Source of the DNA: Nitrospinota bacterium
GTDB taxonomy: Bacteria > UBA8248
Assembly (NCBI GenBank): GCA_009839615.1
Contig: VXPH01000280.1
Span: 1-49,070, forward strand
Length of the DNA: 49,070 bases
Direction: 5' to 3'
The notes beneath the pieces are model-generated. The model ran no database searches, was not told the origin of the DNA, and saw only the letters and a list, made by a program, of their open reading frames with translations. How positions within the stretch are numbered: the stretch's first letter is position 1; each line of letters begins with the position of its first letter. Of the stretch, positions 14,157 through 22,980 are shown piece after piece. The position numbers and the translations under genes were made by a program.

Positions 14157-15017
14157 TTAGTCCGGCCTCCAGACCATGCCCCAACGCTGGATGGTCCATC
14201 TCTCGAGCGGGATGAGAAGCAGCCTGTCCGTGATCATCCACATGATGGCGATGACGAGCACGCCCAGAAACACTTCCTCGATCTTGTACTCGGCGGCGGA
14301 GACGAAGATCATGAAGCCCAGGCCGCTGTCGCCGCCTATCATCTCCGCGGCGATGAGCGCGCGCCAGCCGAAGCCCATGCTCATGCGCACGCCGGTGACG
14401 ATGCTGGGAAGGGCGCCCGGTATGTAGACCTGCGAGATGATGGCCCACCTCCCGCCGCCCATCGTCATGACGGAGTTTTCATACACCCTTGGTACGCCCC
14501 GCACGCCTAAAAGCGTGTTGAAGAAGATGAGCCAGAACACGGTGTTCAGCAGGATGAAGAGCGTCGTGAGCCAGCCGGTGCCGAACCACACGATGGCCAG
14601 CGGCACCCAGGCGATGCCCGAAATGGCGTTGGCGAAAACGCCGATGGGCTCCAGCGCATGGGCGAAGCGGCGGCTCATACCCGCCAGCACGCCCAGGGTG
14701 ATGCCCGAGGGAATGCCGATGACGAGGCTCAGTCCCACGCGGCCCAGGCTGGACAGGATGTGGTTCGTGAACAGGCACTCGTACTGCATCGAGAGCACGG
14801 CGCCCGCGCCCGCGCAGCCCTCCGAGAGCGTGTAAATCGCCTCCCAGATGGAGGCCATGGGCGGGATGTACACCGGCGGGAGCCATTCCATCGCGGTGTT
14901 CATCTGCCACATGGCGAGCAGGACGACGAAGGGGATGGTCCCCAGCAATATCTTCCGGAGCCTCTGGCGCCCGAAGCGCTTCTGGAGGCCGATGGAGGCT
15001 GTCTGGAGTACGCTCAT
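14157..15017 (-). CDS. ABC transporter permease (NitT/TauT type), second subunit
   Basis: 286 residues, a six-helix permease of the binding-protein-dependent transport family. The cytoplasmic-loop stretch near the AGMSRRFAHALEPIG segment and the EAA-type loop GARG-like region sit in the middle of the protein. The start at 15017 is chosen because its ATG overlaps the stop of the upstream permease (ATGA), a sign of translational coupling. Together with the next gene upstream it would form a heterodimeric permease for nitrate-, taurine- or aromatic-sulfonate-type substrates. Confidence 0.85.
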   Translation of the reverse strand: MSVLQTASIGLQKRFGRQRLRKILLGTIPFVVLLAMWQMNTAMEWLPPVYIPPMASIWEAIYTLSEGCAGAGAVLSMQYECLFTNHILSSLGRVGLSLVIGIPSGITLGVLAGMSRRFAHALEPIGVFANAISGIAWVPLAIVWFGTGWLTTLFILLNTVFWLIFFNTLLGVRGVPRVYENSVMTMGGGRWAIISQVYIPGALPSIVTGVRMSMGFGWRALIAAEMIGGDSGLGFMIFVSAAEYKIEEVFLGVLVIAIMWMITDRLLLIPLERWTIQRWGMVWRPD

Positions 15018-15838
15018 CTTTGCACGAGCCCCCACCTTTGGATGGTGTCCGCCTCGATGGGACGCAGGGCGAAGCGATCGATCATGATCCAGATGACGCC
15101 GATCATCACCATGCCGAGGATGACTTGGGCGGTGAGGTCCGCGTCCTGCGCGGTGAAGATCATCCAGCCCAGTCCGCGCCGGCCCGCGAGCATCTCGCCC
15201 GCGATGACGGCCCGCCAGGCGTAGCCGATGCCCAGCCGCGCCCCGGTGGCGATGTGGGGCATGGCGCTGGGGATCAGTACGTCCTTCACGATTCGGATGC
15301 GCGAGGCGCCAAGTGTGCGCAGGGCGTTCACCAGAATCATCGGGGTGCTGCGCACGCCGGTCAGGACGTTAAAGGCGATGGGGAAAAAGCAGGTGTAGAG
15401 GATGACGACGAAGACCGTCTTCTCGCTGTTGCCCCACCAGACAACGATGATCGGAAGAATGGCGATGCCCGAGATGGACTGAAAGAAGTTCATGATGGGG
15501 TAGAACATGTCCGAGACGGTGCGGTTCAGCCCCAGGGCGATGCCGAAGGGAATGCCGAGCAGCAGGCCGATGACGCTGCCGATGACGAGCCGCCAGAGCG
15601 TCTGGCCGATGTAGTTGGGCAAGAGCCCCTTCCAGATGACGTCGTAGGAGGAGAGGACGACCGAGACGGGCGAGGGCAGGTAGCGGCTCGGGTTGGGGAT
15701 GTTCTGCGAGATGACGCTCCACAGGAACAGGATGCCCAGGATGAGGAGCACGAGTTCGACCCCGCCGCCCCTGACGAACCTTCTCCACTGCCTGGACTGC
15801 GGTTTTCTCACCGGGGCCGCCTCACTACTCCTCGTCAT
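15014..15838 (-). CDS. ABC transporter permease (NitT/TauT type), first subunit
   Basis: 274 residues from an ATG at 15838 that sits inside the 3' end of the ATPase gene, with GGAGGTG about six bases upstream. The start overlaps the ATPase stop by 14 bases. Hydrophobic segments number about six, with SISGIAILPIIVVWWGNS and LGASRIRIVKDVLIP-type EAA-loop signature in the middle. It pairs with the adjacent permease. The longer frame upstream is only an extension of the overlapping ATPase reading region and lacks family similarity. Confidence 0.86.
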   Translation of the reverse strand: MTRSSEAAPVRKPQSRQWRRFVRGGGVELVLLILGILFLWSVISQNIPNPSRYLPSPVSVVLSSYDVIWKGLLPNYIGQTLWRLVIGSVIGLLLGIPFGIALGLNRTVSDMFYPIMNFFQSISGIAILPIIVVWWGNSEKTVFVVILYTCFFPIAFNVLTGVRSTPMILVNALRTLGASRIRIVKDVLIPSAMPHIATGARLGIGYAWRAVIAGEMLAGRRGLGWMIFTAQDADLTAQVILGMVMIGVIWIMIDRFALRPIEADTIQRWGLVQR

Positions 15839-16613
15839 CGAACACCTCCTCGCGCACGAGGCGGAGAATTTCATCGCGCGGGTCGGTGTAGGCCTTCTCG
15901 GAGAGCAGGTCCTTCCAGATTCGTTTTTCGCGCGGAACGTCGATTTTGACGGTGGCCTTGAGCTTCCCCGGACGGCGCGAGAAGATGAAGCACCGGTCGC
16001 CCAGGAACGCGGCCTCATCCACGTTGTGCGTGATGAAGAGTATGGTCTTGCGTGTCGCGATGGCGATGCGGTTCAGCTCTTCCTGCAGGGTGATTCTCGT
16101 CTGCGCGTCCACGGCGGCGAAGGGCTCGTCCATGAGCATCACGACCGGGTTCGCACAAAGCGTCCGCGCGAGGGCGCAGCGCTGCTTCATGCCGCCCGAG
16201 AGTTCGTGCGGATAGCGTTCCTCAAAGCCCGAGAGGCCGACAAGATCAATGAACTCCTGCACCTTCTGTTCCCGTTCGCTCTTGGGGATGCCCTGAATCT
16301 CGAGGCCGTGGCCGATGTTTCGCGCCACGGTGCGCCAGGGGAGAATGGCGTGTTCCTGAAAGACAACGCCGCGGTCCGGCCCCGGCCCCTGCACCTCCTT
16401 GCCGTCCACCTGCACACTGCCCTCGGTGTGGGGGAGCAGCCCCGCCAGGATGTTCAAGAGCGTGGTCTTGCCGCAGCCACTCGGGCCGACGACGGCGGAG
16501 AACTCGCCGTCTTCCACCGAGAGGCTCACCTGGTCGAGCGCGTGAACGTCCTCGCCCGTGTACTCGTCCGGATAGTGGTGCGACAGCCTGTCTACGACCA
16601 GTTTCGCGGGCAT
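15825..16613 (-). CDS. ABC transporter ATPase (NitT/TauT type)
   Basis: 262-residue nucleotide-binding subunit. Walker A GPSGCGKT (43-50), Q-loop Gln86, signature LSGGMKQR (138-145), Walker B VVMLMDEP (157-164) and H-loop His196 are all present, so the ATPase is functional. It drives import by the two permeases downstream. Order in the operon is receptor, ATPase, permease, permease, small membrane protein. A GC hairpin lies between the receptor gene and this one. Confidence 0.94.
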   Translation of the reverse strand: MPAKLVVDRLSHHYPDEYTGEDVHALDQVSLSVEDGEFSAVVGPSGCGKTTLLNILAGLLPHTEGSVQVDGKEVQGPGPDRGVVFQEHAILPWRTVARNIGHGLEIQGIPKSEREQKVQEFIDLVGLSGFEERYPHELSGGMKQRCALARTLCANPVVMLMDEPFAAVDAQTRITLQEELNRIAIATRKTILFITHNVDEAAFLGDRCFIFSRRPGKLKATVKIDVPREKRIWKDLLSEKAYTDPRDEILRLVREEVFDDEE

Positions 16614-16687: not shown

Positions 16688-17704
16688 CTAATTAAGGTCC
16701 TTGAACCACTCGGGGTGTTCCTTCATGGTCCGGTTGATGAACTGGAAGTCGAAGTATTTCTTGGGGTCGTAGGGGCGCTTCATCTTCTTCTGGGCGATGA
16801 GCTGCTTGACCGAGAAGTTGAAGGCCTTGAGCGTATTCTCGCCCAGGCGCGGGTCGTAGGTCCACCACTTGATGGTGCGCTTGATGAGGGCGGCGTCCAT
16901 GCCCCGGACGTAGCGCGCGCCGATTTTGGCGATCTCGTCGCGGTTCTTGGGGTCGCGCACGTAGGCGGCCGACTCGGACATGCCGTTCACGAACGCCTGG
17001 GTCGCCTTCTTGTCCTTGTAGACGCGCTCCGGAACGCCGTGCATGCCCGCGCAGAAGCACACGTAGTCGCCGCCGCGCGACACGATGGAAGAACCCTTCA
17101 CCTTGTCGACCATGCGGGTGAGGTAGGGCTCCCACGCCACCATGGCGTCCACGCCGCCCGAGTCGAACAGCGAGACGAGGCTCGGCGGACGCACGTTGAT
17201 GCGGCGCACGCCGCCCACGCCGATGCCGTTTCTCTCCAGCAGCGTGCGGAGATACAGATCACCGGTGGAGCCGAAGGTCGCGCCGATTTTCTTGCCCTTC
17301 AGGTCCTTTATGCTCTTGATGCCCTTTCCGGGGCGCACGGCGATGCCCACCATCTCATCCGTGGTGGATTTCTTGTAGGAGCCGCCGACGTAGCCCACGA
17401 CGCCGCGCACCTTGATGCCGCGCTCCAGCGCCGCCGGCAGGTTGGTGAAAGCAGCGGGAGCGAAGTCGATCTGTCCGGCCTTGAGCGACTTGGTGAGCTG
17501 GGCGCCCGTGTTGCGCACGACGACCTTCGCGTCCAGCCCGTTTTTGGCGAAAAAGCCCTTGTCGACGCCGACGAAGACGATCATGCCGCCGGTGTTGCTG
17601 GCGGCGCCGAGCTTGAGCGTGGGCGCCGCAGAAGCGAGGCCCGCCGCCGAAAGCGCGAACGCGAAAGCGACGGCCAGTGTGATGCGAACAATATTCCTCT
17701 TCAT
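16688..17704 (-). CDS. ABC transporter substrate-binding protein (NitT/TauT, NMT1-like)
   Basis: 338 residues with signal peptide MKRNIVRITL to ...AAGLASA (cleavage near 25) and a periplasmic binding domain of the NMT1/TauA type. The start at 17704 is chosen because GGAGG lies nearby and the signal sequence begins there; an earlier in-frame ATG would put 14 odd residues before it. First gene of the ABC operon. The ligand could be a sulfonate, nitrate-like anion or thiamine precursor; sequence alone does not decide. Confidence 0.88.
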   Translation of the reverse strand: MKRNIVRITLAVAFAFALSAAGLASAAPTLKLGAASNTGGMIVFVGVDKGFFAKNGLDAKVVVRNTGAQLTKSLKAGQIDFAPAAFTNLPAALERGIKVRGVVGYVGGSYKKSTTDEMVGIAVRPGKGIKSIKDLKGKKIGATFGSTGDLYLRTLLERNGIGVGGVRRINVRPPSLVSLFDSGGVDAMVAWEPYLTRMVDKVKGSSIVSRGGDYVCFCAGMHGVPERVYKDKKATQAFVNGMSESAAYVRDPKNRDEIAKIGARYVRGMDAALIKRTIKWWTYDPRLGENTLKAFNFSVKQLIAQKKMKRPYDPKKYFDFQFINRTMKEHPEWFKDLN

Positions 17705-17868
17705 TGCAAACCTCCAGTAATGCGTGATGAATAGAAGTGGCCCCATCTGGAAGATGTCGTGGCCGTGAGCGCGTTATGATGAAGTTTTATATCAATTCGC
17801 CGTATTGTTCGGGAAGAGTTTCCGGAATGCAAACGCCCAAGCCTGTCCGGCGCTTCGCCGCATGCGCG

Positions 17869-18705
17869 CTACTGAGCCTGTACGATGGGCGTGTCGTCGC
17901 GGTTGCCCCATTCCTTCCAGGAACTCATGTAGTTTCTCACTTTCGGGTAATCCAGAAGCCGAAGGGCGAAGTAACCGTGCGCCGCACGGTAGCCCGTCTG
18001 TCAGTAGGCGGTCACTTCTTTTTCGGGCGTGACCCCGATGGCCTCGAACTGCGCGCGAAGCTCGGCAGCAGTCTTCATTTCGCCATCGGGCGTCAGGTGC
18101 TGGAGCCACTCCTGCCAGACCGCGCCGGGGATGATGCCGCCGCGTCTGGCGCGCACGCTCGTTGCCTCCCACTCCCCTAGCGAGCGGGTGTCGAGCAGCA
18201 TGTGGTTGTCATCCTCGATGGCCGCCATCACGTCCTCGCGCGTGGCGAGGCGGTGCGGCTCGAACGCCATCTGGAAAGAAGCGGCCTGGGGCACCTCGGC
18301 GTCGCGTGTCGTCTCATAGCCCGCCCGCTCCCAGGACCTATAGCCGCCGTCGAGCACGTGCACGTCCTTGTGGCCGAAAAGCTCCAGCATCCAGAAGCCG
18401 CGCACGCTCGTGTTGCCGACGAAATCGTCGTAGAAGACGATGGTGTTCTTGAACGACACCCCCCGGTTCCCCAGCAGGAACGCCCACATGGAGAAGAAAT
18501 TCCGCAAGGGCGCTTCGTCCGAATCGTCGCTGTTCACGCCGTAGACGTCGAAATGCCGCGCGCCGGGGATGTGGCCCATCGTGTAGCGTTCACCGGGGCG
18601 CGTGTCGATGATCCTTAAATTCGGGTCGTTCATGCGTTCTTTGAGTTGCCCGGCCGACCAGAGCAGGTCGGGGTTCGCATACCCTTTCGGGTTGTCGCTC
18701 GTCAT
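17869..18705 (-). CDS. Rhodanese with TGA (probable selenocysteine) at the catalytic site
   Basis: Two-domain thiosulfate sulfurtransferase of 278 residues if TGA at 18001-18003 is read as an amino acid. The N-terminal domain (about 1-130) has Asp at the usual Cys position and looks inactive. The C-terminal domain carries the active-site loop, where homologues have Cys-Gln-x-Gly; here the frame reads TAY-TGA-QTGYRAAHGY. The frame continues for 43 more residues, with the family's ending RNYMSSWKEWGNR, before a normal TAG at 17869. A 7-base-pair hairpin 17 bases after the TGA fits a bacterial SECIS element. GGAGGAG precedes the ATG. It is probably a selenoprotein; read as a stop, it would lose the catalytic residue. 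It follows an SDR gene by 15 bases. Confidence 0.75.
17974..17990 (-). promoter_or_regulatory. Candidate bacterial SECIS hairpin
   Basis: On the minus strand ACCGTGC-GGC-GCACGGT forms a perfect 7-base-pair stem with a three-base loop that begins with G. The loop begins 17 bases after the TGA (18001-18003). Known bacterial SECIS elements have a small apical loop with G among its first two bases, at about this distance from UGA. A lower GGGC/GCCC pairing could extend it. Confidence 0.6.
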
Positions 18706-18720: not shown

Positions 18721-19467
18721 CTAGTCCGTCCAGAAGCCGCCGTTCACGTCCACGGCCTCTCCGTTGATGTGAGCGGCCTCCTCGCTCGAGAGGAACAAGA
18801 CGGTGTGCCACACGTCCTCCGGCGTCGTGAGCCTGCCCATCGGGTGCGCCTTCTCGGCGTTTACGAGCATCTCGGGCGGGGACTGGAAGTGAAGGCCCGT
18901 ATCCGCCGGACCGGGCTGGATGGTGTTGATCGTCACGCCCGTCTTGGCGAGTTCGCGCGCCAGGTTGAACGTCATGGCGAGCAGGCCCGCCTTGGCGGCG
19001 GAGTAGGTGAGATTGGGGCCGATGCCCCCCATTTTCCCGGCGATGGACGCGAAGCTGACGATGCGCCCCGTGCCCGAAGCCTTGAGCGCCTCGATGGTCT
19101 CCTGGATGCAGAAATAAGGCGCGAGCAGGTTCACGTTTAGGACGACGTTCCAGTCTTCCTCTTCGAGTTCCATCGGCGGGCGAATCGGCATGTAGCCGGC
19201 CACGTTCGCCAGCACGTCGCAGCCGCCGAGCCATTCGAGCGCCGCGCGCATGGTGGCGCGGATGGCGTCCACGTCGGCCAGGTCGCATGGGAGCTTGAAG
19301 AGCTGATCGGAGGGGCCTTCTATCGCGTCGAAGGCGGGGCCTTCCCTGTCGGTGGCAAAAACCTTGGCGCCAGCCTCGATGTAGCCCTGCAGGATGCGGC
19401 TTCCCATCGCGCCCGCCGCGCCCGTGAGGATGACCTTTCGGCCCTGAAAATCAAAACGAATGGGCAT
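18721..19467 (-). CDS. SDR-family NAD(P)-dependent oxidoreductase
   Basis: 248 residues of the classical SDR family. Cofactor motif TGAAGAMG at about 15-22, catalytic Ser141, Tyr155 and Lys159 (YSAAK). CTGGAG lies upstream of the ATG. It is the first gene of a two-gene operon with the rhodanese 15 bases downstream. Whether it supports sulfur or selenium metabolism, or just shares the promoter, cannot be told. Confidence 0.9.
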   Translation of the reverse strand: MPIRFDFQGRKVILTGAAGAMGSRILQGYIEAGAKVFATDREGPAFDAIEGPSDQLFKLPCDLADVDAIRATMRAALEWLGGCDVLANVAGYMPIRPPMELEEEDWNVVLNVNLLAPYFCIQETIEALKASGTGRIVSFASIAGKMGGIGPNLTYSAAKAGLLAMTFNLARELAKTGVTINTIQPGPADTGLHFQSPPEMLVNAEKAHPMGRLTTPEDVWHTVLFLSSEEAAHINGEAVDVNGGFWTD

Positions 19468-19708: not shown

Positions 19709-19808
19709 GGAGAAGAAAGAGTGCATTCATCCGAAAATCAGACAAGGATAAAACCATAAATATGCCCTGCGGCATGTGGTTTGGCGCCGCGAACGAGTGG
19801 AGGTTGTG

Positions 19809-22094
19809 ATGGCTGAACTCTCATATATCGGGAAAAGCATACCTCGCGTCGATGGACCGGAAAAGGTGACGGGCAAGGCCATGTTCACCCTGGACCTTCA
19901 GTTGCCCAAAATGCTCCACGGGAGGCTTCTGGGAAGTCCCCTGCCGCACGCGCGAATCAAGAACATCGACACAAGCCGCGCCGAGAAGCTCCCCGGCGTC
20001 AAGCTCGTGATGACGCACAAGGACATCCCCGAGGGAGTGGAATGGGGCGTCGTACCCGTTTGCTACGACCAGCGTCCTCTCGCTTCGGACAAGGTGCGCC
20101 ATGTGGGCGACTCGGTTGTGGCTGTGATAGCGACTTCGGAAGACATCGCGGTAGAAGCGCTCGATCTGATCGACGTGGACTACGAGGAGCTTCCCACCGT
20201 CTTCGATCCGAGGGAAGCGATGCAAGAGGGTGCTCCCGTCATTCATGACAGGTATCCGGACAACATCGCCTTCGTCAAGCACATGGAATTCGGCGACGTG
20301 GACCGCATGTTCGACGAGGCGCATCACGTGAGCGAGTTGGCCACTTCCTCCTCCCGCCAGATGCACGGCTCTCTGGAGGCGCACGTCTCCATCGCCGAGT
20401 GGTCGCAAAAGGGCGACGTGACGGTCTACAACTCCTCGCAGTGCCCGAGTCTTTCGAGCCAGTATTTCTCCAAACTCCTCAAGATTCCAGAAGCCCAGAT
20501 TCGCGTGATCACGAACTACGTGGGCGGTGGTTTCGGCGGGAAGGCGACGAGTAAGTTCAACATCGATTTCCTCTCCATCATCGCCGCGAAAAAACTGGAC
20601 CTTCCCGTGAAGTTCTATTACACGCGCGAAGAGGAGTTCCTCCTGGGCACGCACCGGACGAAGCAGTACCACGTCTGGCGCCTCGCCACCGACAAGGACG
20701 GCATGCTGCTTGCGCGCGACACGCAGATGGTGGTGGAAAACGGCGGATATTCCGATTACAGCCCGGCGGTCGGCTCCATCACGGCGCACATGGGCGGGAG
20801 CATCTACAACTACAAGGCCTATCGCCACCACGCCGACGTCGTCTGCACGAACGTGCCGCCCGGCGGCGCGATGCGCGGGATCGGCAACGCGGGTTATGCG
20901 TTCGGGTCCGAACTCGCCATGGACAAGCACGCCGAGGAAATCGGCATGGACCCGGCGGAGTTCCGCATCAAGAACTTCGTACGGAGCGGCGACACCACCA
21001 TCATCGGGGCCAAGATCACGAGTTGCGGCGTATCCGAGTGCGTGGAGGAAGCGGTCAAGCGCGTGCCCTGGGGCGAGAAACAACCGAGCAGCAACGGGAG
21101 AAGGCGCGGCTACGGGGTAGCCGCAGCGGTTCATTTCACCGGTGCACGCGCCATGGGGCCGGAGACGGCGGGCGCGTTCATCAAGATGAACAAGGACGGC
21201 ACCGTGCAGTTGCTTTCGGGCACCATCGAGATGGGCAACGGCTCGGACACCACGCTCGCGCAGATTTGCGCCGAAGCGATTGGCATCCGCGTGGAGGACG
21301 TCCGGATCATCAACGGCGACACCGCGGTGAACCCCTACGGGTGGGGTGTGCGCGGAAGCCGCACGACGACCATCGACGGCGAGGCCACGCGCCTGGCGTC
21401 GGTCCAGGCGAAGAACATGCTCTTCAAGGGTGCTGCGGAACTACTCGAATGCGACCCGAACGACCTCGACGCGCGCGAGGGCAAGATTTTCGTCACCAGC
21501 TCTCCAGAGAGGGTAGTGACTCACAGCGAAGCCTATATGAAGCTGTATGAAAAAGAGGGCAGCGAGGCCGTATACACGGCGTCTTCCTACGACTCGCCGA
21601 GCGAGACGCCCGACCCCGTGACGGGCTATGGAAACTGGTCCGCCGCGTATGCCTACGGCGCCAAGGTGGCGGAAGTGGAAGTGGACACCGAAACCGGCGC
21701 GTTCGAGGTGTTGCGCGTCATCAGCACGAACGACTGCGGAACCATCGTGAACCCCGCCGGCGCGCAGGGCCAGCTGGACGGCGGCGCGCTGATGGGCGTG
21801 GGCTACGCCATGATGGAGGATTTCGAGTGTGAAGACGGCATGCCGGTGAACGCGAACTGGCTCGACTACAAAATGCCCACGACCCAGGATCTGCCCGAAC
21901 TCGAAGCCGTGCTCATCGAGACGGAGAACCCCTCGGGACCTTACGGGGCGAAAGGGTTGGGCGAGATGGCGCAATTGGGAACATCGGCGGCGATAGGCAA
22001 CGCGATCTACGACGCCGTGGGCGTTCGGATCACGTCGCTGCCGATAACGCCGGAGAAGGTGCTGGCCGCGTTGAACGCGAAAAACGGCGGATAA
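19809..22094 (+). CDS. Xanthine dehydrogenase-family molybdenum-binding subunit
   Basis: 761 residues of the aldehyde oxidase/xanthine dehydrogenase/4-hydroxybenzoyl-CoA reductase large-subunit family, which carries the molybdopterin cofactor. The N-terminal domain begins with GKSIPRVDGPEKVTG. GGGFGGKATSK, PPGGAMRGIGNAG and, near the C-terminus, GAKGLGEMAQ with the catalytic Glu are all visible. The start at 19809 has GGAGG five bases upstream. The FAD subunit follows. No [2Fe-2S] small subunit is nearby. It hydroxylates or reduces an aromatic or purine-like substrate; substrate not assignable. Confidence 0.9.
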   Translation: MAELSYIGKSIPRVDGPEKVTGKAMFTLDLQLPKMLHGRLLGSPLPHARIKNIDTSRAEKLPGVKLVMTHKDIPEGVEWGVVPVCYDQRPLASDKVRHVGDSVVAVIATSEDIAVEALDLIDVDYEELPTVFDPREAMQEGAPVIHDRYPDNIAFVKHMEFGDVDRMFDEAHHVSELATSSSRQMHGSLEAHVSIAEWSQKGDVTVYNSSQCPSLSSQYFSKLLKIPEAQIRVITNYVGGGFGGKATSKFNIDFLSIIAAKKLDLPVKFYYTREEEFLLGTHRTKQYHVWRLATDKDGMLLARDTQMVVENGGYSDYSPAVGSITAHMGGSIYNYKAYRHHADVVCTNVPPGGAMRGIGNAGYAFGSELAMDKHAEEIGMDPAEFRIKNFVRSGDTTIIGAKITSCGVSECVEEAVKRVPWGEKQPSSNGRRRGYGVAAAVHFTGARAMGPETAGAFIKMNKDGTVQLLSGTIEMGNGSDTTLAQICAEAIGIRVEDVRIINGDTAVNPYGWGVRGSRTTTIDGEATRLASVQAKNMLFKGAAELLECDPNDLDAREGKIFVTSSPERVVTHSEAYMKLYEKEGSEAVYTASSYDSPSETPDPVTGYGNWSAAYAYGAKVAEVEVDTETGAFEVLRVISTNDCGTIVNPAGAQGQLDGGALMGVGYAMMEDFECEDGMPVNANWLDYKMPTTQDLPELEAVLIETENPSGPYGAKGLGEMAQLGTSAAIGNAIYDAVGVRITSLPITPEKVLAALNAKNGG

Positions 22095-22113
22095 CGAGGA
22101 GAGGGGAGAAAAA

Positions 22114-22980
22114 ATGGCTTTTCGGCATCTACCCGCGAACAGCGCGGAGGAAACACTCGCCGCCCTGAAGGAGCATGGCGACGACGGGAAAGTATTCGCA
22201 GGCGGCGTGGCCCTCTCGATTCTCATGAAATCGGGGGTGTACGAACCCGATGTGTTGATTGATATCGCAGGGGCGAACGATCTGGATTTCATCGAAGCGA
22301 CCGAAAACGGCGGGGTCCGCATCGGGGCGAAGACGGTGCACCGCAAAATCGAAACCTCCCCGCTCGTTCAGGAGCGCTTTCCGCTGCTCGCGGAAATTTT
22401 TCACAACGTGGCGACCATTCGCATCCGAAACCAGGGCACAGTCGGCGGCAATTTGTGCTTTGCGGAGCCGGCTTCCGATCCGCCGGGCGCTTTTCTGGCC
22501 CTTGAGGCCCGGATGAACACAAGGAAGGCGGATGGAACGGAACGCGTGGTTCCCGCGACGGAGTTCTGGACGGGATACTACGAGTGCGCTCTGGATGAGG
22601 ATGAGTTGCTCTGTTCGATAGAGGTCGACCCGTTGCCCGATGGCTTCCAGACGGCGTGCACGCGCTTCACCACGCGTTCGAAAGAGGATAAACCCTGCGT
22701 CTCCGTTTCCACCGCGGTGCTCACCGAAGAAGACGGCAAAACGGCCAGGGAGGTGAGAATCGGCCTGGGCGGCGTGGAGGCCATATTCAGGCGCCTCACG
22801 GCGGTAGAAGAAGGCCTTCAGGGCAAGGAACTCAACCAGGAGAACATCGACGCCGTGCTGGCGGATACGCTCGATGACCTCGATCCTTTGACCGATATCC
22901 GCGCGAGCGGCGACTACAGGCGGCAGGTGACGCCCGTCCTGATCCGGCGGACTATCCTGAAGGCGCTGGGCGCGTCCTGA
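22114..22980 (+). CDS. Xanthine dehydrogenase-family FAD-binding subunit
   Basis: 288 residues of the CoxM/HcrB type. FAD-binding segments GGVALSILMKSG (near 30) and RIRNQGTVGGNLCFAEPASDPP (near 105-126) are present, and the C-terminal CO dehydrogenase flavoprotein domain follows. It passes electrons from the [2Fe-2S] clusters to an acceptor. It starts 19 bases after the molybdenum subunit, so it is co-transcribed. The iron-sulfur subunit that normally joins the two is missing from this operon. Confidence 0.9.
   Translation: MAFRHLPANSAEETLAALKEHGDDGKVFAGGVALSILMKSGVYEPDVLIDIAGANDLDFIEATENGGVRIGAKTVHRKIETSPLVQERFPLLAEIFHNVATIRIRNQGTVGGNLCFAEPASDPPGAFLALEARMNTRKADGTERVVPATEFWTGYYECALDEDELLCSIEVDPLPDGFQTACTRFTTRSKEDKPCVSVSTAVLTEEDGKTAREVRIGLGGVEAIFRRLTAVEEGLQGKELNQENIDAVLADTLDDLDPLTDIRASGDYRRQVTPVLIRRTILKALGAS

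Follow-up and report, generated by a model that had tools for sequence, protein, structure and literature searches.

Selenocysteine-containing rhodaneses of COG2897 were first described in 2005 as a new family of selenoproteins in Sargasso Sea data (PMC1088965), were found again in the GOS in 2008 (PMC2398784) and are listed in two reviews (PMC9312934 and PMC13188914, the latter placing them as UxxG 'form 4', cd01449). The remark in an earlier note on this DNA that rhodanese-like selenoproteins had already been proposed from metagenomes is thus borne out by the 2005 and 2008 papers. The published proteins are two-domain rhodaneses of the SseA type with a UxxG motif, a SECIS just downstream and widespread Cys homologues. 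Bacterial SECIS elements are hairpins located immediately downstream of the UGA codon, with a small apical loop that bears a G (PMC1088965). In the tandem rhodanese RhdA of Azotobacter vinelandii, Cys230 is the active-site residue, and the enzyme in which it is mutated to Ala no longer binds glutathione or scavenges thiyl radicals (PMC3458005).

Here, a stretch of 49,070 nucleotides from a Nitrospinota bacterium (the window) was analysed, in which a rhodanese gene carries an in-frame UGA at the catalytic position. Judged from its sequence, this gene very probably encodes a selenocysteine-containing rhodanese and carries a bacterial SECIS. Rather than a new kind, it is a well-supported further case of the published COG2897 group, with which it shares all of the traits given above; the likeness is one of family and motif. 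In contrast to the published cases, the bacterial lineage is identified, and a conserved neighbourhood, the machinery, orthologues and synonymous constraint are shown. A literature search on selenoproteins in Nitrospinota found nothing useful. The features of the gene are as follows:

17869..18705, minus strand: predicted selenocysteine-containing two-domain rhodanese (SseA/RhdA type), 278 codons plus TAG stop (PF00581, Foldseek)
18001..18003, minus strand: in-frame UGA, residue 235, presumably read as selenocysteine (aligned with RhdA Cys230; 16 orthologues)
17872..18000, minus strand: C-terminal stretch of 43 codons past the UGA (protein-level purifying selection)
17974..18000, minus strand: the first nine codons past the UGA, Q-T-G-Y-R-A-A-H-G, synonymously frozen (pS 0.05 against about 0.5 elsewhere)
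17974..17990, minus strand: SECIS-like hairpin, 7-bp stem ACCGUGC/GCACGGU, triloop GGC at 17981-17983 (folding, recoding control, synonymous conservation)

Reading frame and catalytic loop

The frame opens with the ATG at 18705, its codons extend from 18705 to 17872, and it closes with the TAG at 17871-17869; a single UGA, codon 235 of 278, is its only interruption. Re-reading of the frame confirmed the initial observation that it halts at the TGA at 18001-18003 and resumes for 43 residues up to the TAG. These residues are QTGYRAAHGYFALRLLDYPKVRNYMSSWKEWGNRDDTPIVQAQ, and the QTGYRAAHG directly after the UGA is the usual context of a rhodanese active-site loop. Four other UGA-interrupted frames with a hairpin in the window were discarded, since the translation flanking the UGA was, by eye only, unlike an active-site motif.

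When the UGA was read as a residue, PF00581 matched the protein in two stretches (E 6.8e-33), and the AlphaFold2 model and Foldseek agreed on the presence of two rhodanese domains. The alignment-based AlphaFold2 model (mean pLDDT 95, pTM 0.92) displayed residues 235-238 as a loop between the strand 230-234 and the helix 239-250. The best solved matches in Foldseek were A. vinelandii RhdA (1e0c), which was the closest, and the T. thermophilus rhodanese 1uar. U235 aligned in sequence with the catalytic Cys230 of RhdA (1e0c, 1h4k), which has the same tandem rhodanese fold and in which CQTHHRS is aligned with the UQTGYRA found here; the two proteins differ by Cys230 versus the predicted Sec, by HH versus GY within the loop and by S versus A. 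As in the catalytic loop of tandem rhodaneses, U235 is located at the start of the C-terminal loop, which also contains the arginine R240; at least 90% of the aligned homologues have Arg at this position. The protein was not classed as a 3-mercaptopyruvate sulfurtransferase because its score with the equivalog model NF008557 was 140.3 bits, below the curated cut-off of 250.

The UGA was present at residue 235 in 16 of 16 close orthologues, the window's own gene included, which are 73-100% identical to the window protein and stem from separate genome assemblies; for one of them, L047, the codon is numbered 234 as the match starts one residue later. A TGC or TGT turned into TGA by an assembly or sequencing error is thereby excluded, as the same TGA would have had to arise in all 16 assemblies and down to 73% identity; nothing was found in favour of such an error, and the chance of it is negligible. 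Alignment position 235 was C or U in all 23 homologues examined. Outside the orthologue group the aligned homologues have Cys there, save for the distant UGA-bearing L052, so that the alignment of homologues which the earlier note had called for returned only Cys or UGA at exactly that position.

Under translation table 11 the UGA is a stop, the frame is truncated to 234 amino acids, and gene callers using this table would end the rhodanese right before the catalytic residue. If this were the true end, the gene would be a pseudogene or would encode a truncated protein devoid of the catalytic residue. Such a reading is very improbable given that the UGA is common to 16 genomes, that the catalytic loop and a C-terminal WKEWGNR motif are retained, and that purifying selection past the UGA is as strong as before it. 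Among the 16 orthologues, pN/pS was 0.24 upstream of the UGA and 0.25 beyond the SECIS, and from the similarity of the two values it follows that the part past the UGA is translated and is under selection at the protein level.

Hairpin, synonymous constraint and selenocysteine machinery

When the U of the UGA is counted as nucleotide 1, the hairpin pairs from A14-U30 to C20-G24 and encloses the triloop G21 G22 C23. The small G-bearing apical loop immediately downstream of the UGA is what characterises a bacterial SECIS. The hairpin had been described from the outset as having seven pairs and a G first in its triloop, 17 bases after the TGA; the pairs and the loop G stand, whereas the 17 nucleotides are the distance to the loop G (nucleotide 21), the stem itself beginning 10 nucleotides past the UGA. 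In the E. coli fdhF SECIS the key G and U are nucleotides 23-24, and the layout observed here agrees with this.

A stem of at least 7 pairs with a G-bearing loop at the same distance arose in 17 out of 20,000 synonymous recodings of the same 12 residues with the local codon usage. As a further chance control, 2,081 ordinary codons in genes nearby were examined, and 28 of them were followed by a comparable stem with a G-bearing loop. The folding energy of the hairpin was not significant relative to shuffled sequences (z -0.5 to -1.9). Since the hairpin was not separated from the shuffles, the z-scores are not used as evidence, and the significance of the hairpin rests on its conservation. In the 16 orthologues the stem was almost invariant, the sole change being U30 to C in L048 with the loss of one pair.

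Synonymous sites displayed the constraint clearly. Mean pS across the 16 orthologues was 0.051 in the nine SECIS codons, as compared to 0.509 in the part before the UGA and 0.541 in the part past the hairpin, and the nine-codon windows around the UGA were among the lowest in pS of the whole gene. The CGT codon for Arg in the frozen stretch was found in 16 of 16 orthologues, yet accounts for only 5 of the 126 Arg codons nearby. The constraint was limited to approximately two codons before through nine codons after the UGA. A longer alternative fold, in which sequence upstream of the UGA would pair with the hairpin region, was set aside on account of this narrow span.

The genome (3.57 Mb in 280 contigs, 94% complete) contained all four components of the selenocysteine machinery for which the earlier note had suggested a search. 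The selB (381 bits) and selA (582 bits) genes were detected near each other on contig C97, selD (333 bits) on contig C100, each above its family cut-off, and a tRNA-Sec with anticodon UCA (75.9 bits, also above cut-off) on contig C7. The 18 genomes of the phylum that were compared all belong to one family. A selB match above the cut-off was missing in four draft relatives, three of which (G005, G014 and G015) are 67-79% complete and the fourth (G013) 91%.

Reading through the UGA by other means, for instance by a near-cognate tRNA inserting Trp or Cys or by a code in which UGA is sense, would likewise yield selection past the codon. This alternative is nevertheless highly unlikely: the genome holds the complete selenocysteine machinery, the synonymous constraint is of the SECIS type and does not reach beyond the codons that surround and directly follow the UGA, and the homologous residue is Cys and not Trp. 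Moreover, TGA is the terminal stop in the orthologues L040, L043, L046 and L047, so that UGA does not serve as a sense codon throughout. A TAG reported in genome G049 was found to be the normal gene end.

Selenocysteine as the catalytic residue, as first proposed for this frame, is supported by the machinery, the conserved UGA, the Cys or U in homologues, the constraint on the hairpin and the alignment with Cys230. In the proposed mechanism SelB and Sec-tRNA would bind the hairpin 10 nucleotides downstream and decode UGA 235 as selenocysteine.

Gene neighbourhood and predicted chemistry

The rhodanese gene is part of a string of genes on the minus strand, of which the following are its neighbours:

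18721..19467, minus strand: short-chain dehydrogenase (SDR) just upstream (PF13561, E 3.1e-46; conserved neighbour)
16688..17746, minus strand: SsuA/NMT1-like ABC transporter substrate-binding protein, downstream (PF13379, PF09084; synteny)
15825..16613, minus strand: ABC transporter ATPase, belonging to the string (PF00005; synteny)
14157..15811, minus strand: two ABC transporter permeases, 15014-15811 and 14157-15035 (PF00528; synteny)

The short-chain dehydrogenase adjoined the rhodanese in all compared loci of the selenocysteine orthologues, and the binding protein followed it in most of them, short contigs limiting the comparison. With the curated sulfonate model TIGR01728 the binding protein scored 119 bits, below the cut-off of 163.5. 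On the plus strand, opposite to the rhodanese, a divergent molybdenum hydroxylase was located at 19776-22980, consisting of the large and the FAD subunits. Its large subunit was nearest to the models of 4-hydroxybenzoyl-CoA reductase and xanthine dehydrogenase, all under cut-off, and the hydroxylase was found beside the selenocysteine rhodanese within the genus as well as in several others, as far as short contigs allow the comparison.

The enzyme probably carries out sulfur-transfer chemistry. In the UQTGYR loop, the selenolate of Sec would take sulfane sulfur from a donor as a selenosulfide, candidate donors being thiosulfate, 3-mercaptopyruvate or a persulfide, and this sulfur would then be passed on to an acceptor. 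The job of the rhodanese may be linked to its conserved neighbours, the dehydrogenase and the sulfonate-type transporter.

Selenocysteine might also be inserted into an enzyme working mainly in thiol or peroxide redox reactions rather than as a sulfurtransferase. Most uncharacterised selenocysteine proteins are expected to be redox enzymes (PMC9312934), and Cys230 of RhdA serves in the scavenging of glutathione thiyl radicals (PMC3458005). Against this, the protein lacks a UxxC motif with a resolving Cys, the loop and the fold match sulfurtransferases, and the neighbouring transporter resembles those for sulfonate uptake, although under cut-off; a mainly redox role is unlikely, if still worth some weight. 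With sulfur transfer retained as the preferred reading, it is conceivable but doubtful that this lineage-specific selenocysteine sulfurtransferase, with its dehydrogenase and sulfonate-type transporter beside the molybdenum hydroxylase, performs a dedicated sulfane-sulfur step in organosulfur uptake and breakdown or when the molybdenum cofactor is sulfurated, and that Sec is truly catalytically better there than the Cys form of the sister lineages.

Cysteine relatives and other UGA-containing genes

In the phylogenetic tree, the 16 proteins with predicted selenocysteine formed one clade (support 100/98) nested among Cys-containing relatives. The Cys proteins L049 and L059 adjoined this clade, the branching order of the two being weakly supported, and another Cys clade was located outside. 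A single change from Cys to Sec is apparently the simplest reading for the clade on the basis of this tree. The distant UGA-bearing proteins L052 and L065 were found elsewhere in the tree, which overall contains at least three changes between the Cys and Sec labels.

The Cys orthologue L049 (genome G007, contig C187) is located downstream of SDR genes, as are the selenocysteine genes. It is 69% identical to the window rhodanese and has a CQTGYRSAH loop, but differs from it by a TGC codon, by the absence of the hairpin, which is also absent in L059, and by an extra SDR gene that separates the rhodanese from the conserved one. Genome G007 retains selB, and the Cys in L049 is therefore not explained by missing machinery. 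The lineage thus provides a clean natural experiment, with Sec and Cys orthologues approximately 70% identical within one bacterial family and no hairpin in the Cys form. Its defined genes make it possible to ask what a sulfurtransferase gains from selenocysteine, a question that dates from the 2005 prediction.

Two more genes with an in-frame UGA were noticed in the genome of the window. The selD gene (L010, G000:C100:3018-3980, minus strand) has its UGA close to the N terminus (KAGG-U-GSKLGPEDL); the hairpin downstream of it has the triloop GGA at nucleotides 21-23, and selD is itself a probable selenoprotein gene. L065 (G000:C133:6129-6947, minus strand) is a second two-domain rhodanese, 31% identical to the window rhodanese, in which a UGA takes the catalytic position (VLY-U-RLSHRAS); its hairpin has 9 bp, and the triloop GUC occupies nucleotides 23-25. 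As predicted by folding, the window rhodanese, selD and L065 are three UGA genes of one genome with a common hairpin layout. Four further genomes of the genus contained single-UGA matches scoring like L065.

L052 (G056:C58:25810-26616) is a rhodanese of another bacterial family, 40% identical to the window protein and with a UGA at the catalytic position. The fold downstream of its UGA, a 6-bp stem with an 8-nt loop, is different from and weaker than the hairpin of the window.
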